DNA from: Bacillota bacterium
Lineage (GTDB): Bacteria; Bacillota; Clostridia; Lachnospirales; Lachnospiraceae
Assembly (NCBI GenBank): GCA_023663285.1
Contig: JAMPHT010000009.1
Location: 19,414 to 83,413 of the forward strand
Direction: 5' to 3'
DNA length: 64,000 nucleotides
This document shows, in pieces, positions 11,932 through 27,387 of the stretch. How positions within the stretch are numbered: position 1 is the first letter of the stretch; every line of letters begins with the position of its first letter. The notes under the pieces are model-generated. The model did no database searches, had not been told where the DNA came from, and saw nothing but the letters and a program-made list of their open reading frames with translations. The translations under genes were made by a program, and so were the position numbers.

Positions 11932-12055
11932 CATGCCGCCTCCGGCGGCACAAACAATCCTTGAGAAGAATCGCTTCCCTTGCGATTCTTCAGTGTGAGA
12001 TTAGAATTTCTTTGCGAAATGCCCTCTGGCATGAGCATTAGAAATTCTTCTCACA
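11932..12055 (-). repeat. Dispersed hairpin element, copy A
   Basis: Intergenic element between the RpiR gene and the flavoprotein gene. Hairpins are separated by linkers shared with copy B (42013-42161). Arms: TGCCGCC/GGCGGCA, GAAGAATCGC/GCGATTCTTC, and TGTGAGA..AGAATTTCT/AGAAATTCT..TCTCACA, which encloses ATGCC/GGCAT. The linkers CACAAACAATCC and the segment around CAGTGTGAGATTAG are identical in both copies while the inner stems differ. The RpiR stop codon (12051-12053) lies inside its left edge as read on the minus strand. Confidence 0.8.
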
Positions 12056-12983
12056 TTTCTTTGCGCAGGGAATAATTCAGCATAGGCTCATCGTCAATAA
12101 AGTTGATCTCGTCATTCAGGTACACCTGATAATTATTCCAGGTCTCCTCCAGCATCTCCAGATTCCGCTTCACATCCTGGGGGCACTTTAAGCACAGCGC
12201 CACCACCAGCGCGTTGATAACGCTCAGCGGCGCTACCAGAGAGTCAACAATGGACACCATATCGCTTCTTGCCAGAAGATTACAGGAGGAATACAGACTC
12301 ATGGGCGAGTGGGTGGAATCCGTTATGGCAATCACCTTTGCGTTTCTGTCGCTGGCAAATTCCATTGCCTTCAACGTACGCATGGAATATCTGGGGAAGC
12401 TGATACCGATGAAGCAATCCTTCTCATTGATCCGTATCATCTGCTCAAAGGTCTCGCTGACACTGGTGGTCTTTAACAACACCACCCCGCCTCTGATCAT
12501 ATTGAGGTAAAAATGCAGGAATTCTGCCAGGGGCTCGTTGCTGCGCAGGCCCATGATATAAATAGTCTCCGCCTCCAAAATGGTATTCACCGACAGTTCA
12601 AAGGCCGTGGGATCCAGATGGTCTATTGTATGCTGCAGCTTTTCAATATCAGCCGTTATCACGGATGTAAGCACCTCGGACTGGGAGCTTCTTCCGTATT
12701 TTGCATCCATTTTCTGGATACTGCTGAGTTTCCCCTTGACGCACTCTTCCAGCGCCCGCTGAAACTCCGGGTATCCCTCGTACCCGATACCGGAAGCAAA
12801 ACGAACTACTGTAGATTCACTGATCCCCAGCATTTCTCCAAGCCTTGCCGCAGTCATGAACACAGCCTGATCATAGTGCTCCAGGATAAATGAGGCAATG
12901 GCCTTGTGGCTTTTGCTCATCTTATTGTATTTATCCGATATCCGGCTCAACACATCATATTCTTTTCCCACGATCTCCTCCAT
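12051..12983 (-). CDS. RpiR/MurR-family transcriptional regulator
   Basis: A 310-aa regulator with an N-terminal helix-turn-helix domain of the RpiR type (about residues 10-85; AARLGEMLGISESTVVRFA is the HTH) and a SIS sugar-phosphate-binding domain (about 125-260; IYIMGLRSNEPLAEF begins it). Family members respond to phosphosugars and often control sugar or amino-sugar catabolism, but no such genes are adjacent, so the target is unknown. The stop codon is within hairpin element A. A palindrome CGGCAG..CTGCCG (13044-13057) lies upstream and could be its operator. Confidence 0.9.
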   Translation of the reverse strand: MEEIVGKEYDVLSRISDKYNKMSKSHKAIASFILEHYDQAVFMTAARLGEMLGISESTVVRFASGIGYEGYPEFQRALEECVKGKLSSIQKMDAKYGRSSQSEVLTSVITADIEKLQHTIDHLDPTAFELSVNTILEAETIYIMGLRSNEPLAEFLHFYLNMIRGGVVLLKTTSVSETFEQMIRINEKDCFIGISFPRYSMRTLKAMEFASDRNAKVIAITDSTHSPMSLYSSCNLLARSDMVSIVDSLVAPLSVINALVVALCLKCPQDVKRNLEMLEETWNNYQVYLNDEINFIDDEPMLNYSLRKEM

Positions 12984-13043
12984 TTTTGAACTGTATCCCT
13001 TTCACCCTGCCGCCCTGTTCTATATTCATTCTATCCATGCAGA

Positions 13044-13057
13044 CGGCAGTTCTGCCG
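13044..13057. promoter_or_regulatory. Palindrome upstream of the RpiR gene (possible operator)
   Basis: CGGCAGTTCTGCCG is a 6-bp inverted repeat with a 2-nt centre, about 60 nt upstream of the RpiR start. Autoregulation is possible but unproven, and no clear promoter accompanies it. Confidence 0.3.
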
Positions 13058-13069
13058 GGGCTATATCCG

Positions 13070-13120
13070 GTATGACTCACTTTAATTATCCCTATGTTTC
13101 GCCCGGCTGGTGAGTCATAC
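13070..13120. repeat. Spaced inverted repeat between the TetR and RpiR genes
   Basis: The 11-nt arms GTATGACTCAC (13070-13080) and GTGAGTCATAC (13110-13120) are perfect complements 29 nt apart. The right arm touches the TetR stop codon. No T-run follows on either strand, so it is not a standard terminator. Confidence 0.6.
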
Positions 13121-13668
13121 TAGGACATAAACGCCTTGCAGGAGTGTTCCAGCAGTTCAAGGGTCTCCACGTCGGACAGGTCGTAATCCCCTGTCAGCGA
13201 CATACAGGCCGCACCATGTATCAATATCCACATTCTCATAAACAGGTTTCCGGGGTCCGAGCAGCCTGCAGATCTTGCAAGATTGATTTCATATACCACA
13301 TTTCCCTCCCCGCCGTTCAAGAGCTCATACATACTCTTTCTGCCGGGCCTGCTGTTTACAAACAGTAATTCAAACAGGTGTTTTTCTTCCCGCGCAAACC
13401 CTATGTACGCCATCCCCAGGTTGGAGAAGGGCGCCTTCCCGATCCTGGGGTACAGGCTGTAGTAATCCTGAAAGTACGCCGCCGCCCGCTCATAAACCGC
13501 ATCCCAAAGCTCGTCCATATTCTTATATACACGAAAAATGGGCTGGGTAGAACAGCCTGCTTTTGCCGCCACCCGGCGGGCCGTCACATTGGAAAAGCCT
13601 TCCTCCCTGGTCATTGCAAAGGCGGTATCCAAAATCATTTGTAGTGTTATTGTTTCCTTTCGTGCCAT
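13120..13668 (-). CDS. TetR/AcrR-family transcriptional regulator
   Basis: A 182-aa repressor-type protein. The N-terminal TetR helix-turn-helix occupies about residues 8-55 (FSNVTARRVAAKAGCSTQPIF is the recognition region), followed by a helical ligand-binding domain. Start ATG 13668 has GGGAG upstream. The promoter region holds a 19-nt palindrome directly over the -10 box, so negative autoregulation is very likely. Its ligand and other targets cannot be read here. Confidence 0.92.
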   Translation of the reverse strand: MARKETITLQMILDTAFAMTREEGFSNVTARRVAAKAGCSTQPIFRVYKNMDELWDAVYERAAAYFQDYYSLYPRIGKAPFSNLGMAYIGFAREEKHLFELLFVNSRPGRKSMYELLNGGEGNVVYEINLARSAGCSDPGNLFMRMWILIHGAACMSLTGDYDLSDVETLELLEHSCKAFMS

Positions 13669-13893: not shown

Positions 13894-14466
13894 CTACTCG
13901 TCCAGTACGGTGGAAAAATATTGGATAGATGTCACGGTATCATTCTCTATGAGAATGCAGAGCTTCATGCCGTCCTTATAATATACCAGCATACTGCCCT
14001 GCTCCGTATAATCCGTTCCATAGGCATTCGTCACATCTGTCAGCGTGCTGCCGATTGAAATATTTTCAGCGGTAGATACTGCGTCGTCCTTTAAAATGAT
14101 TGTTGAAATATAGTCTTTTTCGCCCTGAGGATAGGTCTCTATCACAAAGCTGTTATAGGTATATGTCTTATCCAGTCCCTCAAAGGCACAGCTTGCAGCT
14201 TCAAAATAGTTATTGGGTTCTCCCAGCCCCGCCAGAACAACCGCCATGTCCTCATCCACCGACACAGTCACGCCGTTATACTGAAAAACATAACCCTTAG
14301 CGGCAGCCTGGGCTCCGCCCGACTGAGTTCCTGCGGAATCCCCCGCTGTCTGGGACGCGCCCCCCGGCACATCCGAGACCTCTCCGTCGATGACCTTCTC
14401 GCTGTCTCCACAGCCCGTCATCAAAAGCATACCTGCTGTCAATAAAATACTGATCCACTTTTTCAT
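13894..14466 (-). CDS. Small secreted lipoprotein, last gene of the Dlt-like operon
   Basis: A 190-aa protein with a lipoprotein signal peptide: positive start MKKW, hydrophobic core and lipobox LMTGC with Cys19. A Gly/Ser/Gln-rich linker (about 25-60) leads to a folded domain (about 65-190) with YNGVTVSVDEDMA and a repeated pattern (VLAGLGEPNNYFEA, and later DVTNAYGTDYTEQG) that resembles two half-domains of an extracytoplasmic fold. I do not recognise the family. It starts 14 nt after the DltD-like gene and is followed by a terminator, so it belongs to that operon. It may act at the cell surface with the modified polymer. Confidence 0.8.
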   Translation of the reverse strand: MKKWISILLTAGMLLMTGCGDSEKVIDGEVSDVPGGASQTAGDSAGTQSGGAQAAAKGYVFQYNGVTVSVDEDMAVVLAGLGEPNNYFEAASCAFEGLDKTYTYNSFVIETYPQGEKDYISTIILKDDAVSTAENISIGSTLTDVTNAYGTDYTEQGSMLVYYKDGMKLCILIENDTVTSIQYFSTVLDE

Positions 14467-14479
14467 AAGTACCCTCCTG

Positions 14480-15517
14480 TTATTTTATTCCATATTGAAT
14501 ATACTGTTGCTGCTTTTCCTGTTCGTAGGCCGAAAGCTTCTCCGCCCACGCTTTCTCCAGCTTAGCCTCTCCCCGCCTGTCCGGAACCTCTGTCTCATCC
14601 GCAAGTATCTGCCCGAAATATGCGCTCAGCTTCTCCGCCCCCGACAGATTCAGATGCAGTCCCCCGTCGTAGGTATCCGTCTGAAAGTCCAGCCCGATCT
14701 CCTCCGCACATTCCAGAAAATTCACATAGAGCAGACCATGGTCCTTAGCGTATTCCTCCATCTGGCTCTCCCACTGATCATACCAGTGAGGATACAGGCT
14801 GGGGGCCTTGATGAGGACCAGCTGAACATCCTTTTCCTCACACAGCTTCCTCATTTTGTCCAGATAGTCATAAGCGTTTTCTCCAAACCGATAATCCCCT
14901 AATGGTACCGGATCGGGCATATCTCCCGCCGCCTTTACATCCACCCGCATATAGTAGCCGTTGTGGGACACCTTCGGCACCTGAAACATATTTTCAAGAT
15001 CGCTTCTCTGCAGCTCGCTCCATCGGGAATGGTATCTGAGAATGGGGAACAGATAATCCTCAAAATTCTCTTTTGAAGTCATGGAAGCATATATGGACTT
15101 TACCTTGGAAGCGGACCATTTCATGCCCTCCAGCGTCATCCGGTTGTAGGCTTCCTTCTGAGGCTCGTTGTACTGCATGGCCAGTACGTTGAATACCACC
15201 ACCTTCGGCGTCTCATACCGCAGCGTGTCCTCCAGCAGATAATAGGACTGCCAGATAAGCTGCTGGGCGCTTCCCCTGATATAGCTGTTGATGCCGTACT
15301 CCTGCCACAAGACCGCGGGAGAAAAATTCTCATACACCTCGCAGTCTCCTATGAAGATAACGTCATGGTCCTTTTCCTCGCCATAGTATTCCGCTATCAA
15401 CGCTCCTTCGATTATACCGTCGGTGTACTTCGGTGTCAACAGCCTTTGCAACAGGGCAAGGCTACATACCACAATACAAACCGAGGCGATCGCCCTGCCG
15501 ATTTTTTTCCCTTTCAT
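14480..15517 (-). CDS. DltD-like SGNH-fold membrane-anchored protein (Cys at nucleophile position)
   Basis: A 345-aa protein with one N-terminal membrane helix (about 7-26) and an extracytoplasmic SGNH-like domain. Block I reads DVIFIGDCEV, so Cys59 stands where a Ser is usual (GDS). Block II is RGSAQQ (Gly82), block III contains FNVLAMQ (Asn110) and block V is DGGLH (Asp284, His288). In Dlt and alginate-acetylation systems the partner of the MBOAT protein has this fold and completes acyl transfer outside the cell. Start ATG 15517 is preferred (GAGGGG upstream); a longer frame to 15559 has no signal-like N-terminus. It follows the MBOAT gene. Confidence 0.82.
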   Translation of the reverse strand: MKGKKIGRAIASVCIVVCSLALLQRLLTPKYTDGIIEGALIAEYYGEEKDHDVIFIGDCEVYENFSPAVLWQEYGINSYIRGSAQQLIWQSYYLLEDTLRYETPKVVVFNVLAMQYNEPQKEAYNRMTLEGMKWSASKVKSIYASMTSKENFEDYLFPILRYHSRWSELQRSDLENMFQVPKVSHNGYYMRVDVKAAGDMPDPVPLGDYRFGENAYDYLDKMRKLCEEKDVQLVLIKAPSLYPHWYDQWESQMEEYAKDHGLLYVNFLECAEEIGLDFQTDTYDGGLHLNLSGAEKLSAYFGQILADETEVPDRRGEAKLEKAWAEKLSAYEQEKQQQYIQYGIK

Positions 15518-15597
15518 AATTGTACCCCTCTGTGTGCATAAAGAGGGGTGTTTATACACCCTCTTACGCCAATCAATACTTGAAACTGTCCACAGCT

Positions 15598-17190
15598 TTA
15601 AAACTGATTATAGATGAACTGGCTGGAATCATAGCCTGCGCCGTAAGCGCCCGCCAGCAGCACCACCAGAAACAGTCCGTACCAAATCGCAAACCTGCCC
15701 CAATAGGGCAATCTCCCAATTTTTGCCCGCACACTCCCCGACCGCTGCACAAGGCTCACCGTGATAAGCAGCACCAGGCCGCACAAAAGAATGACATAGT
15801 CCACCGCCGACAGTCCGATATTCAGCAGGGCGCCGTTCCACAGAATATTCCAGTTCCCCTCGCTGAACATACTGCCGAACATCCGAAAGGTCAGCGGCAC
15901 ATCCCTGTAACAGTCGAAAAGGCGCAAAACACTCATCAGCAGGACCGTGCGCACCACCTGAAAAAGCCGGAAGCCGAATCTGCCCCTGACGGCAAACCTG
16001 TGGTGGAACCTTTTATACAGAGGCTCCAGTTCCTGAGATACCATGATCACCAGCCAGTTTCCCAGACCCCAGGCGATAAAGTTCCAGCTTGCGCCGTGCC
16101 AGATACCGGTGGCGAACCAGACCACAAAAGAGGACAGGTACACAGGCACTCGTTTCCCGATGACCTCCCCGAAATGGCTCCTGGAAAATTTGGAAAGCTT
16201 CAACATGGGCTTGCACACGGATATGGGATAGAAAATATAATCCGTGAACCAGGAGCCCATGGTGATATGCCATCGGTTCCAGTATTCCTTGATGTTTTTT
16301 GAAAAATAGGGGCGGTTGAAGTTCTCCGTCACCTTTATGCCAAGAGTCTGGGCGATTCCTATGGTAATGTCGATGCCGCCGGTAAAGTCCGCATAAAGCT
16401 CCAACGCATAAAACAGCATCCCCACAAACACATAGGCCCCCCGGTAGGTATCTGCGTCATGGATCAGCGTATTGACGCCCGCCAGTATTCTGTCCGCTAT
16501 CACCAGCTTCTTAAAAAAGCCCCACAGGATCCGCTGCAGCCCCAGATAAACCGTCTGCCGGTCAAAGGAATGCTCTTCAAAAAGAGTCTGCTTCAAATCG
16601 CCGAATCGGCTGATGGGTCCCTGGATCAACTGGGGAAAAAAGGACACAAAAAGAGCAAACCGGAAGGGATTCTTTTCCGCCTCCACTGTTCCCCGGTATA
16701 CGTCAATGATGTAACCCATACTCTGGAAGGTATAAAAGGAGATCCCCAGAGGCACGATAATGTCCAGAAAGTCCAGCTTTCCTCCACTTCCCACTGTCTC
16801 CAGCACCGAGTTTATGTTGGCGATCACAAAGTTCGTATATTTGACTACCGCCAGTATTCCCAGATTCAGAAGCAGGCAGCCTAAAGTCCAAAGCCAGGTC
16901 CTGTGCTTTATTTTAGTCTTATAGCTCTTTTTCTCTTCCTTACTTAAAGAGCCCTTATGCTCCTGCAGCCAGCTGTCTCTTTTGCTTCGCGCCGCCTCTA
17001 TCCTGCGTCCGGCAAACCAGGTAGTCAGAATCGTTACCGCAATATAGACACAGTACACCGGCCCCGCATAAAAATAGAACAAAAAGCTTGCCCCCAGCAG
17101 CAGCTTCCACTGCCACCGGCGGGGAAGGATATAATATAGCAGGAAAAGGAGCAGCAGGAATTCCAGAAATTCATAGGATGTAAAAAGCAT
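15598..17190 (-). CDS. MBOAT-family O-acyltransferase (DltB-like)
   Basis: A 530-aa polytopic membrane protein of the MBOAT family, related to DltB and AlgI. The conserved segment KEYWNRWHITMGSWFTDY contains His308, and the catalytic His365 lies in GIWHGASWNF. The N-terminal half has many helices with a basic loop near residues 62-98. In Dlt systems this protein moves the aminoacyl group from the carrier protein through the membrane. It starts 2 nt after the carrier-protein gene, so the two are made together. At 530 aa it is longer than typical DltB (about 400) and closer to AlgI-type members. Confidence 0.93.
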   Translation of the reverse strand: MLFTSYEFLEFLLLLFLLYYILPRRWQWKLLLGASFLFYFYAGPVYCVYIAVTILTTWFAGRRIEAARSKRDSWLQEHKGSLSKEEKKSYKTKIKHRTWLWTLGCLLLNLGILAVVKYTNFVIANINSVLETVGSGGKLDFLDIIVPLGISFYTFQSMGYIIDVYRGTVEAEKNPFRFALFVSFFPQLIQGPISRFGDLKQTLFEEHSFDRQTVYLGLQRILWGFFKKLVIADRILAGVNTLIHDADTYRGAYVFVGMLFYALELYADFTGGIDITIGIAQTLGIKVTENFNRPYFSKNIKEYWNRWHITMGSWFTDYIFYPISVCKPMLKLSKFSRSHFGEVIGKRVPVYLSSFVVWFATGIWHGASWNFIAWGLGNWLVIMVSQELEPLYKRFHHRFAVRGRFGFRLFQVVRTVLLMSVLRLFDCYRDVPLTFRMFGSMFSEGNWNILWNGALLNIGLSAVDYVILLCGLVLLITVSLVQRSGSVRAKIGRLPYWGRFAIWYGLFLVVLLAGAYGAGYDSSQFIYNQF

Positions 17191-17192
17191 TT

Positions 17193-17423
17193 TCAGTCCT
17201 CATCTCCCAGCTTCTCGATCAGGGCATACAGCGCCTTTGCCGAATTAAAGTACTCCGGCAGAATGTACTCTGCGGAGATCACCACATCAAACTCTTCCGC
17301 TATCTCCGAAATCACAGAAATGATGTCAAAGGAGTCCAGTATCTTGTTGTCAACCAGATGCTCCTCCTTCTCAAAATCCACATCCGGATGCAGGTCCTTT
17401 AAAATATTCAGCAGTTCTTCCAT
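17193..17423 (-). CDS. Acyl/aminoacyl carrier protein (DltC-like)
   Basis: A 76-aa acidic four-helix carrier protein. The phosphopantetheine attachment site is Ser31 in LDSFDIISVISEI. It lies between the adenylation enzyme (5 nt upstream) and the MBOAT gene (2 nt downstream), so it should carry the activated amino acid as a thioester. The gene order adenylation-carrier-MBOAT-DltD differs from the canonical dltA-B-C-D. Confidence 0.92.
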   Translation of the reverse strand: MEELLNILKDLHPDVDFEKEEHLVDNKILDSFDIISVISEIAEEFDVVISAEYILPEYFNSAKALYALIEKLGDED

Positions 17424-17428
17424 GTTTT

Positions 17429-18970
17429 TTACCTCTTTTCTTTCCGAGAGCTTTCTCCTGTACTCTCCTGATGATACTTCATCAGCGTTACCCTGTCAAT
17501 TTTTCCGTTGGCTGTATGGGGCATCTGCTCCAGCCTTCTGACATAATTGGGAATCATATACCGGGGCAGCTTATCCTTCAAAAGGACGATCAGCGCCTTT
17601 TCCTCCACAGCTCCCACATAATACAGCACGATCTTCCCCTTTGCCTGGTCATAGATACAGCCGGCGCTTTTTATGCCCTCCAGCATATTGACGTTGACCT
17701 CTATTTCTCCCAGTTCAATGCGGTGTCCCATATGCTTGATCTGATAATCCTTTCGGGATACGAATACCAGCTCCCCGGCAGCATTGAGCCTGCCAAGGTC
17801 CCCTGTGCGGTATATCAGCTCCGGATAAGCCGTATTCAGCGGGTTCTGTACAAACACCTCATTGGTTTTCTCGAAATTATTGTAATACCCAAGAGTCAGG
17901 GAGGTGCCTCTGATACAGATCTCTCCTGTCTCTCCGGCGCCTGCAGGCGTATTATCCTCCTTCAGCAGGAGAATTTCCGTGTTGGCAAAGGGGCGGCCAA
18001 TGGGTATGGCCTCATCCGGTTCAAAGTCCCGCTCCACCTTGTAATAGCAGCACATACCCGTTCCCTCCGTAGGGCCGTACAGGTTGGTAAACTTTGCCTG
18101 GGGAAGCGCTTCCCGCCACCGCTTAAACTGCTTGATGGGAAAGACCTCGCTCCCAAAGGCTACCGTATGCAGATATTTGGGAACCACTGTCTTAAAGGTG
18201 TCAAATGCCGAGATAAAGGTCAGGGCGGACACTACCCAGCAAACCGTATTGATCTGGAAGGTATTCAGATATTCCACCAGCTTCACCGGCAGCATAAACA
18301 GCTCCTTGGGGATCAGATAGGTGGTTGCTCCGTATTTCAAGGTAGGATACAGCTCCTTCAGGCACGCATCGAAATACAGGGGCGTCTGATTGCCAAACAC
18401 CGTATTTTCATTGAACTCCAGCACCTCCGAAAGATGCTCGATATAATCCAGCACCGAACGGTGGCACGCCGCCACTCCCTTTGGTACTCCCGTAGAGCCT
18501 GAGGTAAACACCACATAAATGGGATCGGTATCAATAGCCCTGTCATGGATCTCCTGCAATGCCTCCCTGTCGATCTTGGTACGGCAGATGTCATCATACA
18601 GCACGATCTTCGCTCCGCCCGAAAAGCTCTCCGCTGCTTTGGCAGTCTCTGAGTCACAGAGGATCACCTCCGGCTGCAGATTCTCCAGGATCAGATCAAT
18701 GCGTGCTGCCGGCATTTCCGCATCTATGGGTACATAGAAGCATCCCCCCCTGACCACGCCGAAAAAGGCAGTCACCTCTTTCGGGTGCTTATTCATAAAG
18801 ACCACGACCGGCTTTCTGTAGATTCCCCTTTTGTGCAGCCAGGTTCCCACCCCCCGGCTTTCCCGGTCCACCTCCTCGAAGGTCATCCCCTCTGTACCGT
18901 TGGAAAACGCAAGCTTGTCCGGTACTCTTAAAACCGTCTCATCCAGATAGTCTAAAACATTATTCTGCAT
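17429..18970 (-). CDS. Amino acid adenylation enzyme (DltA-like, altered specificity pocket)
   Basis: A 513-aa stand-alone adenylation domain that activates an amino acid with ATP and loads the adjacent carrier. Core motifs: FTSGSTGVPKG (155-165), YFDACLKE (A4, Asp201 for the alpha-amino group), NLYGPTEGT (A5), YRTGDLGR (A7) and the C-terminal NGKIDR with the catalytic Lys. Hand alignment to GrsA gives pocket residues Asp201, Ala202, Lys205, Cys244, Val270, Phe272, Leu297, Gly305 and Met306. DltA has Cys at the Phe272 position and Met at the Lys205 position, so D-Ala is doubtful. The Asp-Ala-Lys start resembles published Glu-type codes. Start ATG 18970 is chosen over 18991. Confidence 0.9.
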   Translation of the reverse strand: MQNNVLDYLDETVLRVPDKLAFSNGTEGMTFEEVDRESRGVGTWLHKRGIYRKPVVVFMNKHPKEVTAFFGVVRGGCFYVPIDAEMPAARIDLILENLQPEVILCDSETAKAAESFSGGAKIVLYDDICRTKIDREALQEIHDRAIDTDPIYVVFTSGSTGVPKGVAACHRSVLDYIEHLSEVLEFNENTVFGNQTPLYFDACLKELYPTLKYGATTYLIPKELFMLPVKLVEYLNTFQINTVCWVVSALTFISAFDTFKTVVPKYLHTVAFGSEVFPIKQFKRWREALPQAKFTNLYGPTEGTGMCCYYKVERDFEPDEAIPIGRPFANTEILLLKEDNTPAGAGETGEICIRGTSLTLGYYNNFEKTNEVFVQNPLNTAYPELIYRTGDLGRLNAAGELVFVSRKDYQIKHMGHRIELGEIEVNVNMLEGIKSAGCIYDQAKGKIVLYYVGAVEEKALIVLLKDKLPRYMIPNYVRRLEQMPHTANGKIDRVTLMKYHQESTGESSRKEKR

Positions 18971-18998
18971 CGCTCCATGCCTTTCTCTCACCCAAATT

Positions 18999-19715
18999 CT
19001 ATCTTGTGATCAGATCCTGATACTGCGGATCGAAACGACCGCACTCCTGCACCGCGCATTTTGCCAGCACCTCCAACACATCCAGATAGCCGGCAGGAAG
19101 CGTATAGTCCCGCTTTAACAGGGACAACTCCGTACACCCCAGCAAATTGACCTGCGCCCCCTCTGCGCACAGTTCTTCTCCCACCCGGATGAATTCCTCC
19201 AGATTTCCCTTTTCACCGGATTTTATCTGACCATAGATCAGATCCATAACGATCCGCTGGGATTCCTCCCCCGGATTCACCGTTGCGATCCCATAACTGC
19301 GAAACACACCGTCAAACAGCCCGCTTTTTACCGTTCCGTCCGTGGCAAGGATCCCCACCTTCTCCACCCCTGCCTGCCTCAGATACTCCGCCGTCTCCCT
19401 CACGGCGTGCAATACCTGAAGCCCTGTGGACTTCTCCAGTTCCTCATGAAAATAATGAGCCGTAATGCAGGGAATTGCCAGCAGTTCTGCACCCATTGCC
19501 TTCAGTTCCCGCCCTATTTCCGCCATCTCCACAGCAGGATCATCCTGACTTAACCCCAGAATATAACGGGTGCGGTCCGGAATAGAAGGCTTGCTGTGCA
19601 TCAGTAGCTCCATATGCTCCTGGTCGCTCTCCGCTTTGCTCATCCGGGTCAACAAATATAAGAAATAGGTGGTGGCCATAGGACCCAGCCCACCGATGAT
19701 CCCCAGCTTTTTCAT
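18999..19715 (-). CDS. Aspartate/glutamate racemase family protein
   Basis: A 238-aa member of the Asp/Glu/hydantoin racemase family, which uses two Cys residues as acid and base to invert the alpha carbon. Both are seen: Cys83 (IPCITAHYF) and Cys194 (LLGCTELS). The N-terminal IIGGLGPMAT motif is typical. The usual Asn after the first Cys (PCNTAH) is Ile here, a possible change in substrate range. Its place directly before the adenylation gene (28 nt) suggests that it supplies the D-amino acid that is activated. Canonical dlt operons lack a racemase because D-Ala is made by Alr. Confidence 0.9.
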   Translation of the reverse strand: MKKLGIIGGLGPMATTYFLYLLTRMSKAESDQEHMELLMHSKPSIPDRTRYILGLSQDDPAVEMAEIGRELKAMGAELLAIPCITAHYFHEELEKSTGLQVLHAVRETAEYLRQAGVEKVGILATDGTVKSGLFDGVFRSYGIATVNPGEESQRIVMDLIYGQIKSGEKGNLEEFIRVGEELCAEGAQVNLLGCTELSLLKRDYTLPAGYLDVLEVLAKCAVQECGRFDPQYQDLITR

Positions 19716-19738
19716 CCTATATACCTCAATTCTTTTCG

Positions 19739-21418
19739 CTATGGTACCTCCGGATACAGTTCATGGTCATAATTATGTGAGTTCCCATGTTTCGCTGAAT
19801 AATCCATCATCTCAGCCTCTGTCCAGTAAAAAATAACAGGATGATCCTTTCTGGGCGTAGTATCCAGATGATGCCAGCCTTCTCCGATATCCACCAGGTT
19901 CCAGTAATGCATCGTCTTTGCCGGAATCTTTTCAATGTCCATATTTGTAATCCCTGCCCGATCCAACAGAACCTTTGTGGTACAGGCAAAGACATAGCAG
20001 TCCCCCTGCTTGTTTACAAGGCCTTCATAGGCGGCTTTTACCCAGTCTCCCTTGTCAGAGTGGCTGATATAGCCTACATTACCCTTCACATAATCATAGA
20101 TAGCGCGCAGCTTTTCATATTCCGTCATTCCCTCTGTAAATATAGAGGCAAGCACGGCATCTGCATAACCGTAAACCTCATTCACGTCATAGGTCATGGG
20201 AATTACCGTCACATTTATGGTTACCGTCGCAGCGTTGCCCGAATCATCCATTGCAGAGTACGTGACAGGATATACTCCTTCCGCATCCAGATTCACCTGG
20301 CTGTTATCCACATTAAGAGGAATCTCACTGCCGCTGTTGTCCGACACTGTAACATTCTTTTTGTAGGAAATGGACGTTCCCATAACATATGTAAAGTCCC
20401 TGGCGCCCGTGATGACCGGCGGCTCCGTGTCCGCCTCCAGAGTGAGCATCGCCGAGGCCTTTGTTTCATTCCCGCCCTCATCCGTAAACACCAGCGCCAC
20501 CTCCCGGCTGCCCGGAACAGTAATGTCCGGCTCCTCTGCAAACGCCGCCGTCACTGTTGTAATATCCTGTACGGACAGCACAAAGTCCTCCGCCGATATG
20601 GGCGTATTGGTGAAACGAGTCAGATCCCGCACCTCTACCACCGGTGGAACGGTATCCACAATATTTAAAATAGAATCATAGGTAACTCCGTCTACCTCTA
20701 TACTTACTGTCTGTCTGGACGGCCTTGACGTATCAATATCCGTAGTCAGCAGTCTTTTTTCAATGCCCGCCAATGTAAAGTCATCCGCCGTGGGCGCTGC
20801 CGTTCCCACATTCCACTGAAGCTCCGCCAGAACAGGCGTAATAAACAGCGTCGTCTCCAGCCGTACAACGTTCCCGCCTCTGTCACTCAACAGGACAATG
20901 ACTGCCTGCTCCCCCCACTGCCCGAAATCCGGCGCCTGCTCAAAGACCACCGACACGGTAGTGGCGTCCTGTATATCGGATACAAAATCCTCCGGCCTGC
21001 AGAACTGTCCGTAGTCAAGCTCAATGGCGTTCACTGCAGCCCGCGGAGCGATGGTATCCCGAATGCAAAGCGTACACTCATGGGTAAACAGACCGCTCCT
21101 GACCCTGACCTTATATTCCCCCGGCGCATGAATGTCAAATGCAGGACTGTTTTCGGCAAATACAGCATCGGGAGTAGGATTTTTAAAGAAATCCCCGGCC
21201 TGGACCTCCACTCCAGCCTCCGCATAGCAGACCTTATAGGTCAGATCGTCAAGATAAAAACAGCCGCCCACAAGCAGCCCCGAAATCAAAAGAATACCTG
21301 TCAGCAAAAGATTCCATTTTCTTCGTCTCTTCCTTTTTCTGATATCCTGACGCCTGCCGCCGTTCCCGGCCGCTCCCGGCCGCTGTCCGGCGCCTCTTGT
21401 CATTTCTCCGTCCCGCAT
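19739..21418 (-). CDS. Exported transglutaminase-like protein with Ig-like repeats
   Basis: A 559-aa protein, first gene of the Dlt-like operon. The very basic cytoplasmic start (about 1-35) is followed by a single membrane segment (about 36-56) and an extracytoplasmic part. Several beta-sandwich, cadherin/Ig-like repeats (about 70-410) share the pattern DTxPP..., then a transglutaminase-like domain follows (about 425-545). The catalytic triad is Cys474 (GDCYVF), His504 (MHYWN) and Asp519 (HHLD). Such domains can be cysteine proteases or cross-linkers; which applies here cannot be told. A strong promoter lies upstream and the racemase gene follows 23 nt later. Confidence 0.88.
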   Translation of the reverse strand: MRDGEMTRGAGQRPGAAGNGGRRQDIRKRKRRRKWNLLLTGILLISGLLVGGCFYLDDLTYKVCYAEAGVEVQAGDFFKNPTPDAVFAENSPAFDIHAPGEYKVRVRSGLFTHECTLCIRDTIAPRAAVNAIELDYGQFCRPEDFVSDIQDATTVSVVFEQAPDFGQWGEQAVIVLLSDRGGNVVRLETTLFITPVLAELQWNVGTAAPTADDFTLAGIEKRLLTTDIDTSRPSRQTVSIEVDGVTYDSILNIVDTVPPVVEVRDLTRFTNTPISAEDFVLSVQDITTVTAAFAEEPDITVPGSREVALVFTDEGGNETKASAMLTLEADTEPPVITGARDFTYVMGTSISYKKNVTVSDNSGSEIPLNVDNSQVNLDAEGVYPVTYSAMDDSGNAATVTINVTVIPMTYDVNEVYGYADAVLASIFTEGMTEYEKLRAIYDYVKGNVGYISHSDKGDWVKAAYEGLVNKQGDCYVFACTTKVLLDRAGITNMDIEKIPAKTMHYWNLVDIGEGWHHLDTTPRKDHPVIFYWTEAEMMDYSAKHGNSHNYDHELYPEVP

Positions 21419-21604: not shown

Positions 21605-23032
21605 TTATACGGGATAGGCTCCGTTCTTCGTATCCGCCTGAGTCATATCCACCTTTTCCTGCTGCGCCTGCCGATACTTGAAGAAATCCATGGCAACCTG
21701 GGGGAACAGTGCATAAGACAGAACATCCTCATCCTGCTGCTTCCATTCCTTCATCTCATTCTCCAGCTTATCCATCTCGTTGCTTAAGGTATCCGCAAAA
21801 CGGCCGGTGAGCCTGGTCTCTCCGGGAATTACCTTGTCGATGACCTCCTGGTTCATGGGCTTTACAGTCTGTCCGTACTCACCGCGGAGCACTGCCTTGG
21901 TCTCCTTGGTAGCCATCTTGTATCTCTCGCCCATCAGTACGTTGAATACCGCCTGGGTCCCCACGATCTGAGAGGAAGGCGTGACCAGAGGGGGCTCGCC
22001 CAGATCTTTACGAACCTGGGGGATCTCTTTCAGCACATCATAATATCTGTCCTCCGCGTTCTGCTCCTTCAGCTGACTTACCATGTTGGAAAGCATACCG
22101 CCGGGTACCTGGTAAAGCAGGGTCTTGATATCCACGCCCATGACCTTGGGATTCAACAGGCCGTTCTTCAGGCACTCGTCTCTGAAAGGACGGAAGTAAT
22201 CTGCGATCTCCGCCAGCAGATTCTGATCAAAGCCGGTGTCATAGGGCGTGCCCCGGAAGGTCTCCACCATGACCTCAGTTGCGGGCTGGGAGGTTCCCAT
22301 AGCCAGAGGACTCATAGCGGTATCAATGACATCCACTCCTGCCTCTACTGCCTTCAAATAGGTCATGCCTGCCACGCCGGAGGTATAATGGGTATGCAGC
22401 TGAATAGGAAGCTTGGTATTTTCCTTCATGGCCGCGATCAGCTCACTTGCCTTATAGGGAACCAGCAGTCCTGCCATATCCTTGATACAGATGGAGTCAG
22501 CTCCCATCTCCTCGATCTTCTTTGCCATGTCAGCCCAATACTCAAGAGTATAAGCGTCGCCCAGAGTATAGGACAGGGCCACCTGAGCATGGCCTCTGCC
22601 TTCCTGCTGCTTCATCCTGTTGGTGGCGTTCACCGCCTCCTGCAGATTGGGCAGATAGTTCAGACAGTCAAAGATACGGATGATATCAATACCGTTTGAA
22701 ATAGACTTCTGTACAAATGCATCCACTACATCATCTGCATAGGGTCTGTATCCTAAGATATTCTGTCCGCGGAACAGCATCTGCAGCTTGGTATTCTTAA
22801 AGCCGTCCCGCAGCTTGCGAAGTCTGTCCCAGGGATCTTCCTTCAGGAAACGCAGAGATGCGTCAAAGGTCGCGCCGCCCCAGCATTCTACGGAATGATA
22901 TCCCACCTTATCCATTTTCTCCACGATAGGAAGCATGAATTCCGTAGGCATTCTGGTTGCAATCAGAGACTGGTGCGCGTCACGCAGTATAGTTTCCGTA
23001 ATTTTAATCGGTTTTTTTGTGGTTTCTGACAT
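21605..23032 (-). CDS. oadA: Oxaloacetate decarboxylase alpha / pyruvate carboxylase-type carboxyltransferase
   Basis: Carboxyltransferase that moves CO2 between oxaloacetate/pyruvate and biotin on a separate carrier protein. The N-terminal TIM barrel has the motifs TILRDAHQS (about 13-21), GRPY-like YRPYADDVVD and the metal-binding HTHYTSG near residue 210. The C-terminal conserved carboxylase domain (about 300-440) follows. No biotinyl domain is attached; the carrier is encoded in the same operon. At 475 aa it fits the short form of OadA/PycB. Start ATG 23032 has GGAGG upstream. It is the last gene, separated from oadB by a hairpin tandem repeat. Confidence 0.93.
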   Translation of the reverse strand: MSETTKKPIKITETILRDAHQSLIATRMPTEFMLPIVEKMDKVGYHSVECWGGATFDASLRFLKEDPWDRLRKLRDGFKNTKLQMLFRGQNILGYRPYADDVVDAFVQKSISNGIDIIRIFDCLNYLPNLQEAVNATNRMKQQEGRGHAQVALSYTLGDAYTLEYWADMAKKIEEMGADSICIKDMAGLLVPYKASELIAAMKENTKLPIQLHTHYTSGVAGMTYLKAVEAGVDVIDTAMSPLAMGTSQPATEVMVETFRGTPYDTGFDQNLLAEIADYFRPFRDECLKNGLLNPKVMGVDIKTLLYQVPGGMLSNMVSQLKEQNAEDRYYDVLKEIPQVRKDLGEPPLVTPSSQIVGTQAVFNVLMGERYKMATKETKAVLRGEYGQTVKPMNQEVIDKVIPGETRLTGRFADTLSNEMDKLENEMKEWKQQDEDVLSYALFPQVAMDFFKYRQAQQEKVDMTQADTKNGAYPV

Positions 23033-23062
23033 TGCGAATCTCCTCCATGTTTTTATTGTCAA

Positions 23063-23398
23063 AAGCCCTGACGGGCTTATTTCATCGCGCTATGCGCGAT
23101 ATACATCCATGATCGTACGCCCGGCTGCTCGTGCAAGCACGGCATCCGCTCGCAGGTTACTGTGCAAGTCACGCTGTGCATTCATAAGCCCTGCGGGCTT
23201 ATTTCATCACGCTATGCGCTCTATATGGCCGAAAGCAAATCCCCGCCTGCTCATGCAAGCATGGCATCCGCTCGCAGGTTACTGTGCAAGTCACGCAATG
23301 CATTCATAAGCCCTGACGGGCTTATTTCATCGCGCTATGCGCGATATACATCCATGATCGTACGCCCGGCTGCTCGTGCAAGCACGGCATCCGCTCGT
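23063..23398. repeat. Three-unit tandem hairpin repeat between oadB and oadA
   Basis: This fills the only gene-free stretch over 300 nt (23033-23419). Unit 1 is 23063-23185, unit 2 is 23186-23307 and unit 3 is 23308-23398 (truncated, identical to the first 91 nt of unit 1). Each unit has AAGCCC/GGGCTT, ATCGCGC/GCGCGAT and CGTG/CACG hairpins. In unit 2 the last stem is CATG/CATG, a paired change that keeps the stem. Both flanking genes are in one operon, so the repeat would be transcribed into its mRNA. Confidence 0.85.
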
Positions 23399-23419
23399 AC
23401 GATCATGTCTGTGCATTGC

Positions 23420-24571
23420 TTAAAAGACCCCGAATATGGCCATGAATGTGCCGGCGGCTACGGCGGTTCCGATCACGCCTGCCACATTAGGCCCCATGGC
23501 GTGCATCAGCAGGAAGTTGGTGGGATCTGCCTCCGCGCCCACCTTCTGGGACACACGGGCCGCCATGGGAACGGCGGAAACGCCCGCAGAGCCAATCAAC
23601 GGATTCACCTTGCCGTGAGTCGCCCAGCACATCAGCTTGCCGAACAGCACGCCGGCAATGGTGCCCACGATGAAGGCAAGCAGGCCAAGCGCTACGATCT
23701 TCAGGGTATCTGCGTTCAGAAATGCCTCTGCACTGGTGGTTGCACCCACAGAGGTTCCCAGCAGGATGACCACAATATACATCAACGCGTTGGAAGCCGT
23801 CTCTGTCAGCTGTCTTACCACACCGGACTCCCTGAACAGGTTGCCCAGCATCAACATTCCCACAAGAGGCGCCGTAGTGGGCAGGATCAGGCTTACCACA
23901 ATAGTAACAATGATAGGGAACAGGATCTTCTCCAGCTTGGAAACGGGTCTGAGCTGTCCCATCTTGATTTTTCTCTCTTTCTCCGTGGTAAAGAGCTTCA
24001 TGAAAGGAGGCTGGATAACGGGCACCAGAGCCATATAGGAGTATGCCGCCACCGCGATGGGACCCATGATCGCCGTCTGCCCCAGCTTGCTGGCGAGGAA
24101 GATGGAGGTAGGACCGTCGGCGCCGCCGATGATGGAGATCGCTGCAGCCGCCATATCGTTAAAGCCCAGAGCAATAGCTCCGAAATATGCGGTAAAAATA
24201 CCGAACTGTGCAGCCGCCCCCAGAAGGAAGCTTTTGGGATTGGCAATCAGCGGCCCAAAGTCCGTCATGGCGCCCACACCCATGAAGATCAGGGAGGGCA
24301 GGATCGCCAGCTCATCCAGTTTATAGAAGTAATACAGCAGTCCGCCCACACCGTTGGAGGCGTCCTCTGCGTGAAGCATGATGTCGGGATAAATGTTTAC
24401 CAACAGCATACCAAAGGCTATCGGAACTAAGAGCAGTGGCTCAAATTCATGACGGATAGCCAGATAAAGGAAAAAGCACGCAACCGCTATCATGACATAA
24501 TTCCCTACGGTCAGGTTGAAAAACGCCGTCTGATGAAGCAGGTTGTTCAGCGTAGAACCTATATATTCCAT
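23420..24571 (-). CDS. oadB: Na+-translocating decarboxylase beta subunit
   Basis: Polytopic membrane subunit that decarboxylates carboxybiotin and exports Na+ (OadB/MmdB/GcdB family). It has 383 residues, with about nine to eleven helices. The conserved regions include GGADGPTSIF (about 148-157), where the Asp is essential in characterised homologues, and a C-terminal GSAGVSAVPMAARV segment. It sits between the biotin carrier gene and oadA, as usual for these pumps. It should serve whichever carboxyltransferase loads the carrier. Confidence 0.95.
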   Translation of the reverse strand: MEYIGSTLNNLLHQTAFFNLTVGNYVMIAVACFFLYLAIRHEFEPLLLVPIAFGMLLVNIYPDIMLHAEDASNGVGGLLYYFYKLDELAILPSLIFMGVGAMTDFGPLIANPKSFLLGAAAQFGIFTAYFGAIALGFNDMAAAAISIIGGADGPTSIFLASKLGQTAIMGPIAVAAYSYMALVPVIQPPFMKLFTTEKERKIKMGQLRPVSKLEKILFPIIVTIVVSLILPTTAPLVGMLMLGNLFRESGVVRQLTETASNALMYIVVILLGTSVGATTSAEAFLNADTLKIVALGLLAFIVGTIAGVLFGKLMCWATHGKVNPLIGSAGVSAVPMAARVSQKVGAEADPTNFLLMHAMGPNVAGVIGTAVAAGTFMAIFGVF

Positions 24572-24612
24572 TTGTTGACCTCCTGTTGTCGTTGTCTATA
24601 GTGGATGTAAGC

Positions 24613-24987
24613 TTAGTTCATGGTTGCCAGAACCGCACCCGCTTCTACCGCATCGCCGACAGCGACATCAATGCTTGCAACCGTTCCGTCCTGAGGAGCA
24701 ACAACGGGGATCTCCATCTTCATGGCCTCGATGATGACAACGGCGTCACCGGCCTTCACTGCGTCACCCGCCTTCTTCTCCAGCTTAAATACCTTTCCTG
24801 CCGCTCCTGCCTCGATCTTAACGCTGCCTGCGCCGCCGGACGCCTTAGGAGCCGCTGCGGGAGCCGCTTTCGGCGCTGCCTTGGGAGCCGCGGGAGCCTT
24901 TGCCGCCACAGGTGCTCCTGTAGATGCGCCTTCTTCCACTGTCACATCGTATACATTTCCGTTTACCGTAATGGTATAATTTTTCAT
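24613..24987 (-). CDS. Biotin carboxyl carrier protein
   Basis: A 124-aa carrier. The N-terminal strand-rich start (MKNYTITVNG) and an Ala/Pro/Lys-rich flexible linker (about 22-52) precede the biotinyl domain, with the attachment site Lys90 in EAMKM. It shuttles the carboxyl group from the carboxyltransferases to the membrane beta subunit. Start ATG 24987 has the family N-terminus and a GGAGG upstream; the longer frame begins inside that site. Its neighbours are the gamma subunit upstream and oadB downstream. Confidence 0.95.
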   Translation of the reverse strand: MKNYTITVNGNVYDVTVEEGASTGAPVAAKAPAAPKAAPKAAPAAAPKASGGAGSVKIEAGAAGKVFKLEKKAGDAVKAGDAVVIIEAMKMEIPVVAPQDGTVASIDVAVGDAVEAGAVLATMN

Positions 24988-25073
24988 TTTATTTTCCTCC
25001 AAAATAATATTTGTCATTGCTGCTTATCTGATATTTGCCAAAACTTATCTGTCGCTATATCTGTCTTATTTCA

Positions 25074-25868
25074 TCAGCGCCGTACCACAGAACGCACCAC
25101 AAATCCGTCTGCTGACGCCTCGCCCCGGCTTGCCGCTATGGCCGCCGCTATCACCGCCACAAGCTCCGTATCATCCGTCTCGTCCGCTGATGACTCCTGT
25201 ACCGTCTCCTGCGCCGCCACATTGTCGGCATTCTCACCGCTGTCCCCGATCTTCGCCAGCGCTCGCTTCGCCGCTGCATCCTGCGCCTTGTTGATAAATC
25301 GGAAACAGGAAATGATAAGGGAGATCAATATCAGTACGGCAAACACGGTACACATTCCGATCAGAGTATTCATTGCCGCCTTTGCCATCAGCTGGCCCAT
25401 TGAGGCAGTGGGATTCAGCGCCACGGATTCCAGCCGCATGAACAGGTCATTGGAAAAGACGATCTCCGCCACTGCGTCCTGCTTCTCCCCTGTGACAGGA
25501 AGCTCCACGATGATCTGCTTTCCGTCAAGCTTTACCTCCGCTTCACCCGTTCCGGTGATGCTTCCTATGGTATTCAGACCTGATTCAAAGGACTGTACGC
25601 CGGTCACCACCGCGTTTCCTTCCACCATTATTCCAAAATACTGCTCACACAGATACTCGATCTCCTCATTGGTCTCCATTTCCGCTACGGCAAAGGGTAC
25701 GTCATTGCAAAGGTAATCGTTAAAAAGGGATACGACGGCAGCCGATGCATCCCCGGCGCTGTCCACCCTGCTCTGCTCGTAGGCCGTCATCCCCTCGCCT
25801 TCCCCGCAGGCAGTCAGTCCAAATACACAGGCGATCATACAAACATAAGCCAATAGTTTCTTCTTCAT
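25074..25868 (-). CDS. OadG-type gamma subunit fused to a secreted lipoprotein-like domain
   Basis: A 264-aa protein. Residues 1-21 form a lipoprotein signal with lipobox GLTAC (Cys21). Residues 25-155 are an extracytoplasmic domain that resembles DUF3887-type folds (compare GKQIIVELPVTGEKQDA). A membrane helix follows (about 168-190), whose pattern NTLIGMCTVFAVLILISLII matches the OadG family. A charged, Ala-rich cytoplasmic tail completes it. OadG anchors the soluble subunits to the beta subunit. Family members are usually about 80-130 aa, so the N-terminal domain is an addition. It is the second gene of the operon. Confidence 0.8.
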   Translation of the reverse strand: MKKKLLAYVCMIACVFGLTACGEGEGMTAYEQSRVDSAGDASAAVVSLFNDYLCNDVPFAVAEMETNEEIEYLCEQYFGIMVEGNAVVTGVQSFESGLNTIGSITGTGEAEVKLDGKQIIVELPVTGEKQDAVAEIVFSNDLFMRLESVALNPTASMGQLMAKAAMNTLIGMCTVFAVLILISLIISCFRFINKAQDAAAKRALAKIGDSGENADNVAAQETVQESSADETDDTELVAVIAAAIAASRGEASADGFVVRSVVRR

Positions 25869-25886
25869 TTTGCTCTCATCACCTCT

Positions 25887-27317
25887 CTATACTGTTCCGT
25901 GCTTTTTAACGGGACGGTCCTCGCTCTTGGTAAAGAGCATCTCAAAGGCGCCGATGACATACTTTCTGGTATCCGCAGCCTCCACGATCCTGTCCACATA
26001 CCCTCTTCTTGCAGCGCCTGCCGCCGAAAGCTGCAGAGCCTCATAGGCTGCCGCCTTCTCGCTGATCACGTCAGCCCCCTGGCCATCATACATGATCTTC
26101 GCGGCCAGCTTGCCCTCCATGGCGCCGATCTCCGCATCCGGCCAGGCATAGGTGATATCCGCCCCGATTGCCTTGGAATTCATCACCACAGCCGCTGTTC
26201 CAAGCGCCTTGCCGATCACCACGTTCACCTTGGGAACGGTTGCGTTTGCAAAAGCATAGGTAAGCCTTGCCGCGGCCCTGGCAATGCCCTTTTCCGAGCA
26301 CATATCAGCCTTATAGCCCTTCACATTGGTGAGCGTCAGAACGGGAATGTCGAAAGCGTCGCAGAAATTCACGAAGTCCGCCGCCTTGTCGCAGCCCTGT
26401 TTTGACAGGACAGCATCCAGCTTCTCCGCCACCTTGCCTTCTTCGTCGCACACCTCGCTGCGATTTGCCACAGCGCCTACGGTCACGCCGTCCAGCTTCA
26501 TAAAGCCCACTACCATATCCTTCGCGTAGTTCGCCTTCAACTCAAAGAAATCATTGTTGTCCGCCAGCATGGACAGAGCGATGGATGTGTCTCCCACACA
26601 GCTTGCCAGCTCCCCGCAGATACGGTTCAGATCGTCCGTACACTCCACAATGTCACTGCCCTCATTATTGTTTGCAGGCAGGAATCCGATCAGATCGCGG
26701 ATACCTGCCAGAATAGCCGTCTCATCCGCAACCACATCCACTATGCCGCTCTCCTCAGACTGGAATGCCGCAGAAGCGGAATCGCACTTTGTGACCACAT
26801 TGCCGTCCAGCGCATTGGGCGCATTGACAAAAAGCTTTGCGTTCTTCTCCTCCATAAAGGTAAAATCCGTCAGGGTGGAGAACAGGGCAAGTCCACCGCC
26901 GCAGCTGCCCAGAACTGCCGTGATCTGGGGAATCACGCCGGATGCAAGGGTCTGCTTCTTATAGATGGCGCCAAAAGCATTCAGCGCATCCGTCGCCTCC
27001 TGTAATCTCAACCCGGCGGAATCAATGAGGCCAATGACAGGGGACCCTGTTTTCATGGCCAGATCATATAGATTGGTGATTTTTTTCGCGTGCATCTCGC
27101 CCACCGTACCGTTCATCACGGACACGTCCTGGCTGTACACGTACACAGGCTTGCCGCCTATCACTCCATAGCCGGTCACGCAACCGTCAGAAGGAGTTTC
27201 GTCCGGTTTCATATTGAAATCCGTGGCTCTTGCAGTTACAAGTCCGCCGATCTCAACGAAACTGTTGTCATCGAGCAAAGCTGCTATTCTTTGACTCGCT
27301 TTTGATGTACTACTCAT
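25887..27317 (-). CDS. Carboxyltransferase, methylmalonyl-CoA/propionyl-CoA decarboxylase alpha-type
   Basis: A 476-aa crotonase-fold carboxyltransferase of the MmdA/AccD-like family, which binds an acyl-CoA and biotin. Both halves are visible: an N-terminal domain with GYGVIGGKPVYVYSQD (about 50-66) and GLRLQEA, with an oxyanion GSCGGG near 120, and a C-terminal domain with VIGKALGTAAVVMNSK near 385 and PDAEIGAMEG near 410. It is the first gene, with OadG, carrier, OadB and OadA-type genes behind it. The likely substrate is methylmalonyl-CoA or a related acyl-CoA. Sequence identity to known MmdA looks only moderate by eye. Start ATG 27317 has GGAGG upstream. Confidence 0.85.
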   Translation of the reverse strand: MSSTSKASQRIAALLDDNSFVEIGGLVTARATDFNMKPDETPSDGCVTGYGVIGGKPVYVYSQDVSVMNGTVGEMHAKKITNLYDLAMKTGSPVIGLIDSAGLRLQEATDALNAFGAIYKKQTLASGVIPQITAVLGSCGGGLALFSTLTDFTFMEEKNAKLFVNAPNALDGNVVTKCDSASAAFQSEESGIVDVVADETAILAGIRDLIGFLPANNNEGSDIVECTDDLNRICGELASCVGDTSIALSMLADNNDFFELKANYAKDMVVGFMKLDGVTVGAVANRSEVCDEEGKVAEKLDAVLSKQGCDKAADFVNFCDAFDIPVLTLTNVKGYKADMCSEKGIARAAARLTYAFANATVPKVNVVIGKALGTAAVVMNSKAIGADITYAWPDAEIGAMEGKLAAKIMYDGQGADVISEKAAAYEALQLSAAGAARRGYVDRIVEAADTRKYVIGAFEMLFTKSEDRPVKKHGTV

Positions 27318-27360
27318 GCTTTCAGCCCTCCGTTTATATAAATAAATGCAGAACATTCCG

Positions 27361-27387
27361 AATCGGGAAAACAAATTTCCCCCGATT
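27361..27387. promoter_or_regulatory. Inverted repeat downstream of the decarboxylase promoter (possible operator)
   Basis: AATCGGGAAAA and TTTCCCCCGATT form a near-perfect palindrome just after the expected transcription start. It could be a repressor site or a 5'-UTR hairpin; which cannot be told. Confidence 0.45.

Follow-up and report, generated by a model that had tools for sequence, protein, structure and literature searches.

The window analyzed here is a stretch of 64,000 nucleotides from a Bacillota bacterium of the family Lachnospiraceae (assembly GCA_023663285.1, contig JAMPHT010000009.1, positions 19,414 to 83,413). On its minus strand, it hosts an operon of seven genes encoding a transglutaminase-like protein (TG), an amino acid racemase (RAC), an adenylation enzyme (ADE), a carrier protein (ACP), a membrane-bound acyltransferase (MBOAT), an SGNH-type enzyme (SGNH), and a lipoprotein (LIPO) (Table 1). 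A preliminary description of this DNA, made from the sequence alone, had reported a tight run of seven genes; the open reading frames (ORFs) were confirmed, with gaps of 23, 7, 5, 2, 38, and 13 nt from TG to LIPO (range 2-38 nt). Homologues suggest that ADE likely starts with an ATG at 18970 (18970-17429) and not with the GTG at 18991, and SGNH has an alternative ATG at 15517 (15517-14480), its residues being numbered here from the GTG ORF at 15559. In our assessment, the operon very probably encodes a surface acylation pathway that depends on a carrier protein and has a racemase of its own.

Table 1. Coordinates of the seven-gene operon and its flanking signals within the window.
Feature	Position	Strand	Basis and description
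TG	21418-19739	minus	ORF; transglutaminase-like protein, first gene of the operon
RAC	19715-18999	minus	ORF; cofactor-independent amino acid racemase, aspartate-racemase family
ADE	18991-17429 (GTG start)	minus	ORF; stand-alone amino acid adenylation enzyme
ACP	17423-17193	minus	ORF; carrier protein
MBOAT	17190-15598	minus	ORF; PF03062
SGNH	15559-14480 (GTG start)	minus	ORF; SGNH/GDSL-type acyltransferase, DltD-like position
LIPO	14466-13894	minus	ORF; lipoprotein, last gene of the operon
Promoter-like TTGACA-18-TAAAAT	21487-21458	minus	upstream of TG; consensus match alone
Terminator-like stem-loop	13888-13857	minus	directly 3' of LIPO; 14 pairs followed by a T-rich tail; consensus match alone

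Related loci were gathered by the ADE protein alone, and the gene families were scored in them with profiles built from relatives. Within a sample of the window's family, ADE was matched at E 1e-60 in 173 of 397 genomes; 42 of these matches were listed at E 1e-165 or better with an identity of at least 55%, and most of the remaining listed ones form a second group with 38-50% ADE identity. The class-level sample yielded matches at E 1e-170 in 39 of 391 genomes, spread over the window's family and nine others. A named set, consisting of the best 80 of 390 matches, was supplemented by 10 loci from the window's family and 29 loci from other Clostridia families, with the same species possibly represented twice across named and unnamed loci. 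Among the 80 named loci, RAC was present in 75, ACP in 74, MBOAT in 73, TG in 71, SGNH in 67, and LIPO in 66. The corresponding numbers were 5, 7, 8, 6, 6, and 6 for the 10 extra family loci and 20, 27, 27, 27, 26, and 25 for the 29 loci of other families. Some of these absences coincide with the end of a contig. Of the five named loci that lack RAC, three break off at the ADE gene, whereas L088 and L103 are not cut. In total, all seven gene families occur together in 80 of 122 loci, a set that takes in the DltA-like outgroup L155 as well as many loci truncated where a contig stops, and 49 of them retain the exact gene order of the window. Agathobacter ruminis JK623 (L091) is a named strain in which the complete set is found. 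The remaining complete loci are reordered or carry an extra copy, e.g., ACP-MBOAT-SGNH-TG-RAC-ADE-LIPO in five cases. This frequency of joint occurrence and of conserved order shows that the operon, found in many Clostridia, is more than a chance arrangement. Its distribution is patchy, since neither ADE nor RAC was found in the two genomes of the same genus that were examined (G022 and G344).

For comparison, an outside group of 36 loci was fetched from the second group with approximately 38-50% ADE identity. All 36 contain ADE, 35 ACP, 29 MBOAT, and 25 SGNH, whereas TG was found in three, LIPO in two, and RAC in a single locus. This locus, L126, possesses the pocket residues of the window's ADE and falls inside its clade; a quick tree with 67 rows gives this clade an SH-aLRT (approximate likelihood ratio test) value of 99 and places L126 on a long branch. 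The outside group is distributed over several clades and does not form a single sister clade. With L126 excluded, RAC is found in 0 of 35 outside loci, while ACP is present in 35 of 35 and MBOAT in 29. The preliminary description had suggested checking whether the racemase and adenylation genes co-occur; they are linked in 75 of the 80 named and 25 of the 39 additional loci. The strongest evidence for a role of the racemase in the pathway comes from five genomes (G801, G719, G087, G364, and G386; L238-L242), in which racemase and ADE are on separate contigs, yet the racemase sits beside the carrier gene and the MBOAT and/or SGNH gene. Based on this conserved linkage, the clustering with acyltransferase genes, and the absence from the 35 loci outside the clade, the racemase belongs to the system and is no accidental neighbor.

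A genome-wide search with the racemase profile covered 79 genomes, comprising 38 with a member of the ADE clade and 41 others, of which 21 belong to the outside group and 20 lack ADE; the thresholds of 170 and 280 bits were chosen after the scores had been seen. Racemases of at least 280 bits were detected in 26 of the 38 genomes with the ADE clade compared with 1 of the 41 others, the latter being the L126 genome (G245), whose ADE shares this pocket and groups within the clade. Of these 41, two more (G012 and G032) reach 170 bits. All 18 genomes with an adjacent racemase scored above 280 bits. Out of 20 ADE-clade genomes initially lacking an adjacent racemase, 15 encode one of at least 170 bits, eight of these reaching at least 280 bits, and in G174, G013, and G135 it is located on the contig of ADE within ~8 kb. 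The racemases of 170-250 bits inspected in G334, G002, G551, G608, G591, G564, and G733 stand alone and may be ordinary aspartate racemases.

RAC belongs to the Asp_Glu_race family (Pfam profile) and exceeds the cut-off of TIGR00035 (188.3 versus 93.1 bits); its closest match in the PDB is the aspartate racemase 1jfl. In 1jfl numbering, all 108 linked racemases have Cys82, Cys194, and Arg48, and 107 have Lys164, the remaining row being unread at this position. RAC thereby shares the catalytic Cys pair, Arg48, and Lys164 with the aspartate racemase family (1jfl; TIGR00035). We take Arg48 and Lys164 of aspartate racemase to grip the side-chain carboxylate, and the four residues in RAC would fit an acidic substrate. 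A difference to this family is seen at position 83 directly after the first catalytic Cys, where RAC carries Ile in place of the Asn83 of 1jfl. The 108 linked racemases have Ile (72), Val (23), Asn (7), Met (4), or Phe (2) at this site, so that Asn is replaced in 101 of them, whereas 15 of 17 unlinked racemases have Asn and two have Ile. The genome encodes a separate MurI (TIGR00067, 263.8 bits, cut-off 146.65). As MurI supplies D-Glu, a second racemase is not needed for this amino acid, which favors D-Asp.

ADE is a member of the AMP-binding family and passes the general adenylation model TIGR01733 (328.5 bits, cut-off 317.4), its top PDB matches being modules of nonribosomal peptide synthetases (NRPS). 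The substrate pocket reads DAKCAGLGMK, corresponding to D235, A236, K239, C278, A299, G301, L322, G330, M331, and K517 in PheA numbering. All 114 rows agree in D235, A236, K239, C278, and L322. Positions 299-301 and 330-331 were set by eye with gap-free anchors, and the MAFFT-derived codes partly disagreed there. Other pocket types comprise D-V-K in the ADEs linked to a LysA-like enzyme (see below), D-A-K-D in L115 and L117, D-A-I-R in L116, L118, and L128, and D-L-L-I in L155. In the excerpted part of PMC10548584, the surfactin Glu/Asp adenylation code is given as DAKDLGVV, including K239; ADE has D235, A236, and K239 in common with such a domain, but differs at C278 and at later code positions. 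The Lys239 pocket fits an acidic substrate and can be regarded as compatible with it, not as proof. ACP carries its phosphopantetheine Ser31 within DSFD, and Ser is found at this position in 115 of 115 rows.

The MBOAT protein exceeds the cut-off of PF03062 (54.8 versus 27 bits), matches the DltB structures 6bug and 8jem, and retains His308 and His365; in the analysis of the 122 loci, the MBOAT clade rows include the three other MBOATs of the window's genome (L194-L196). Its C terminus is formed by the hexapeptide FIYNQF. Of 101 clade MBOATs, 97 have the motif FxYxxF, and the remaining four are cut or split ORFs. Among the outside-group MBOATs, 16 of 29 have the fused motif and the others end in variants of it. 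According to the excerpted part of PMC12148441, the Tyr of FxYxxF carries the acyl group in DltX and PatA.

The SGNH protein matches the family Lipase_GDSL_2 with 20.7 bits, below the cut-off of 32.9, and this weak match recurs in 34 of 39 relatives. No DltD family (PF04914) was among the families listed for the 39 rows at E 0.1, and sequence searches against solved structures or Pfam revealed no informative relative. The protein reads GDCE where the outside group has G-x-S, placing Cys73 at the position of the block-I serine, and block V is kept (Asp298/His302). Cys occupies the nucleophile position in all 106 clade rows, the window among them. In the 25 outside rows, this position is Ser in 22, Cys in one, and a gap in two, giving 22 Ser among 23 scorable rows. 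The preliminary description saw all catalytic motifs apart from certain changes, which holds with two changes, this Cys and the Ile following the first racemase Cys. The sole outside row with a Cys-type SGNH is L137, which is likewise unique among the 25 in having TG together with LIPO (scores >100 and >60, respectively); its ADE has another pocket type and the locus lacks a racemase. Judged from this one exception, Cys-SGNH, TG, and LIPO look like an acceptor-side module and RAC and ADE like a donor-side module. In L137 (4318-10553), TG, carrier, MBOAT, Cys-SGNH, and LIPO are encoded together, with ADE on the opposite strand. The window's own genome contains another MBOAT-SGNH locus on contig C77 (L195, not counted as a clade row), in which a second MBOAT is paired with a Ser-type SGNH without a carrier match, perhaps representing an O-acetylation system. 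Two further MBOATs of this genome are located on C77 and C8.

TG comprises an N-terminal membrane or lipid anchor (assigned by eye), an Ig-like region, and a C-terminal transglutaminase-like domain, supported by Transglut_core (35.3 bits, cut-off 23) and InlK_D3 (36.9 bits, cut-off 25). Its triad Cys474-His504-Asp519 is intact in 80 of 80 rows (the window and 79 relatives selected by length), and sequence searches for TG in Pfam or among solved structures brought up no informative relative. In LIPO, the lipid-bearing Cys19 is invariant in 57 rows, and the motifs SCAFxGLDKxYTY and DDxVxT are conserved. No Pfam family was found for the window protein, none is common to more than nine of the 57 relatives, and no credible solved relative was obtained.

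Building on the observed gene content, conservation, co-occurrence, and catalytic residues, we infer the reaction order by analogy with Dlt and PatA/PatB. RAC would generate a D-amino acid, which is most likely acidic, with D-aspartate as the favored candidate; ADE would activate this amino acid and load it onto ACP, presumably in its D configuration. MBOAT would pass the acyl group from the ACP thioester across the membrane to the Tyr of its own FIYNQF, from where SGNH would accept it on Cys73 and hand it over to a surface acceptor. A thioester at Cys73 in place of the usual serine ester is likely. TG and LIPO would act outside the cell on the acceptor side. We consider it rather probable that the operon as a whole is a Dlt-like, carrier-dependent export acylation system with its own amino acid supply, transferring a D-amino acid, probably acidic, by way of a Tyr ester and then a Cys thioester. 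That the loaded amino acid is acidic appears about equally probable, judged from the racemase residues and a pocket lysine shared with racemase-free relatives, while its identity as D-Asp is nearly, but not quite, an even proposition. A much more speculative and rather unlikely extension would be surface D-aspartylation (or addition of another D-acid) through a Cys-thioester SGNH favoring amide-forming transfer, with TG then cross-linking a surface polymer or protein by the added amino acid. The operon would in this case form a branch within a family of carrier-dependent systems that acylate the surface of Clostridia and in which the amino acid supply genes are interchangeable.

D-alanylation is the chief known amino acid decoration of Gram-positive surfaces and lowers their negative charge; the canonical gene order is dltABCD. 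With the dlt operon (DltA, DltB, DltC, DltD, and DltX), the present operon shares an adenylation enzyme, a carrier, an MBOAT, and a DltD-like enzyme, and acyl-Tyr shuttle chemistry would be expected in both. In contrast to dlt, the order is ADE-ACP-MBOAT-SGNH, a dedicated racemase, a transglutaminase-like protein, and a lipoprotein are added, the shuttle motif is fused to MBOAT instead of forming a separate DltX, and Cys replaces the Ser of the SGNH enzyme. None of the dlt cut-offs was reached by ADE (DltA, TIGR01734, 277.2 versus 559.85 bits), MBOAT (DltB, TIGR04091, 152.8 versus 375 bits), or ACP (DltC, weak match of 25.7 versus 68 bits), and DltD remained unmatched. By these NCBIfam cut-offs the operon is distinct from dlt while Dlt-like in its logic, in keeping with the preliminary description, which set it apart from canonical dlt operons. 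In a phylum sample of 61 genomes, the DltA model was matched at E 1e-100 in only one and in none above its cut-off. The hexapeptide at the MBOAT C terminus and the separate SGNH partner are shared with peptidoglycan O-acetylation by PatA/PatB, from which the operon differs by a carrier and an adenylation enzyme in place of acetyl-CoA and by its Cys nucleophile. By analogy, it would work like dlt and like PatA/PatB. No paper listed in searches of the open-licence literature appeared to describe this operon, although it may have been described elsewhere. If the proposal is true, widespread addition of acidic D-amino acids would shift the surface charge in the direction opposite to D-alanylation and could change contacts of gut and rumen Clostridia with antimicrobial peptides, phages, and the immune system. 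The combination of a fused shuttle with a carrier protein, as well as the Cys-SGNH enzyme, would depart from how MBOAT-SGNH acylation is currently understood to work.

Several observations weigh against the preferred reading. No racemase was detected at E 1e-20 in four of the 38 ADE-clade genomes and only a fragment in one more, the fetched stretch was devoid of a racemase in 5 of the 10 extra family loci and 9 of the 29 loci of other families, and racemases of ~235 bits exist in two genomes without this ADE (G012, L232; G032, L233). The racemase of L233 reads CNTSH and hence is not of the Ile type. The replacement of Asn83 in linked racemases may point to a substrate other than aspartate, and pocket positions 299-301 and 330-331 are alignment-dependent. 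Lys239 is also present in 24 of 36 outside-group ADEs, 23 of which lack a linked racemase. Being shared with the outside group, this lysine was ruled out as a marker of the racemase clade and counts as compatible only. The earlier proposal that the operon loads a D-acidic amino acid is partly supported: Arg48, Lys164, and the two Cys of RAC and Lys239 of ADE fit an acidic substrate, but this lysine also occurs in racemase-free relatives. The same pathway using another D-amino acid, such as cysteate, glutamate, or a different non-standard substrate, deserves attention as a less probable but serious alternative: RAC marginally exceeds the cut-off of the CuyB cysteate racemase model NF052483 (191.1 versus 190 bits, borderline), all 23 racemases compared with this model match it at E 1e-10 or better (the score being seen for the window's protein alone), and the loss of Asn83 as well as an agreement with the surfactin code (in the excerpt of PMC10548584) restricted to the D-A-K before its fourth letter are in line with it. 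It is opposed by the nearest solved relative of RAC being an aspartate racemase and, in the case of glutamate, by the D-Glu supply through MurI.

Further modification of the loaded group on the carrier or acceptor, followed by cross-linking or trimming by the transglutaminase-like enzyme, seems unlikely. The intact TG triad, a LysA-like enzyme in 16 of 36 related-clade loci, and formyltransferase-, acetyltransferase-, or aminomutase-like genes near ADE in single related loci would suit such a scheme, but RAC is the sole tailoring gene in the operon itself. Still less probable is a drifted, plain D-alanylation system with a racemase serving a separate job. Although the enzyme classes are identical and DltA models rank next for ADE in NCBIfam after the general adenylation model, the missed Dlt cut-offs, a pocket unlike that of the DltA-like L155 (DLLILCLVA), and the racemase staying with the acyltransferase genes even where ADE lies elsewhere speak against it. 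The NRPS modules among the top structural matches of ADE could suggest a small nonribosomal peptide or metabolite cluster without any surface function; we regard this as highly improbable, because MBOAT, shuttle motif, SGNH, TG, and lipoprotein all point outward and neither a condensation nor a thioesterase family is found among the seven proteins. Export acylation with a dedicated amino acid supply remains the preferred reading.

Regarding the acceptor, the genome encodes an LtaS-like protein (LtaS model, 84.9 bits, cut-off 970). At E 1e-30, this protein has relatives in 14 of the 38 genomes that carry the system, as against 7 of the 41 that do not, made up of 1 of 21 outside-group genomes and 6 of the 20 remaining ones. 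Lipoteichoic acid was not singled out as the acceptor, as the LtaS-like protein fails to track the system closely. PF04464 (TagB/TagF) had no match in this 86% complete genome.

The racemase-free relatives display a variety of other genes close to ADE and the carrier. The LysA-like enzyme, a pyridoxal phosphate-dependent (PLP) protein with TIGR03099 and lysA as top NCBIfam matches, both below cut-off, might decarboxylate an aminoacyl-carrier; it is found in L123, L125, L132-L136, L140-L144, L146, and L148-L150. L116 and L118 contain a glutamate 2,3-aminomutase-like gene (TIGR04368, 605 bits versus a cut-off of 650 in L118; by eye in L116) and, together with their Arg278 pocket, are candidate beta-amino acid systems. 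Between ADE and the carrier, formyltransferase-like (L121, L124), acetyltransferase-like (L115), and AAC(3)-like (L131) genes were observed, all below the NCBIfam cut-offs; L129 was grouped with L121 and L124, and L147 with L115, by eye.

Promoter-like sites numbered 12 against 9.7 expected and terminator-like ones 11 against 6.7 expected; in view of these counts, the two signals flanking the operon are suggestive by position only. Upstream, the window contains an apparent carboxylase/decarboxylase gene set (21605-27374), comprising a PYC_OADA domain protein assigned by profile and neighbors assigned by eye. Downstream (12051-13668), TetR-type and RpiR-type regulators are encoded, which among the loci inspected for neighbors are kept with the operon only in L035-L038.

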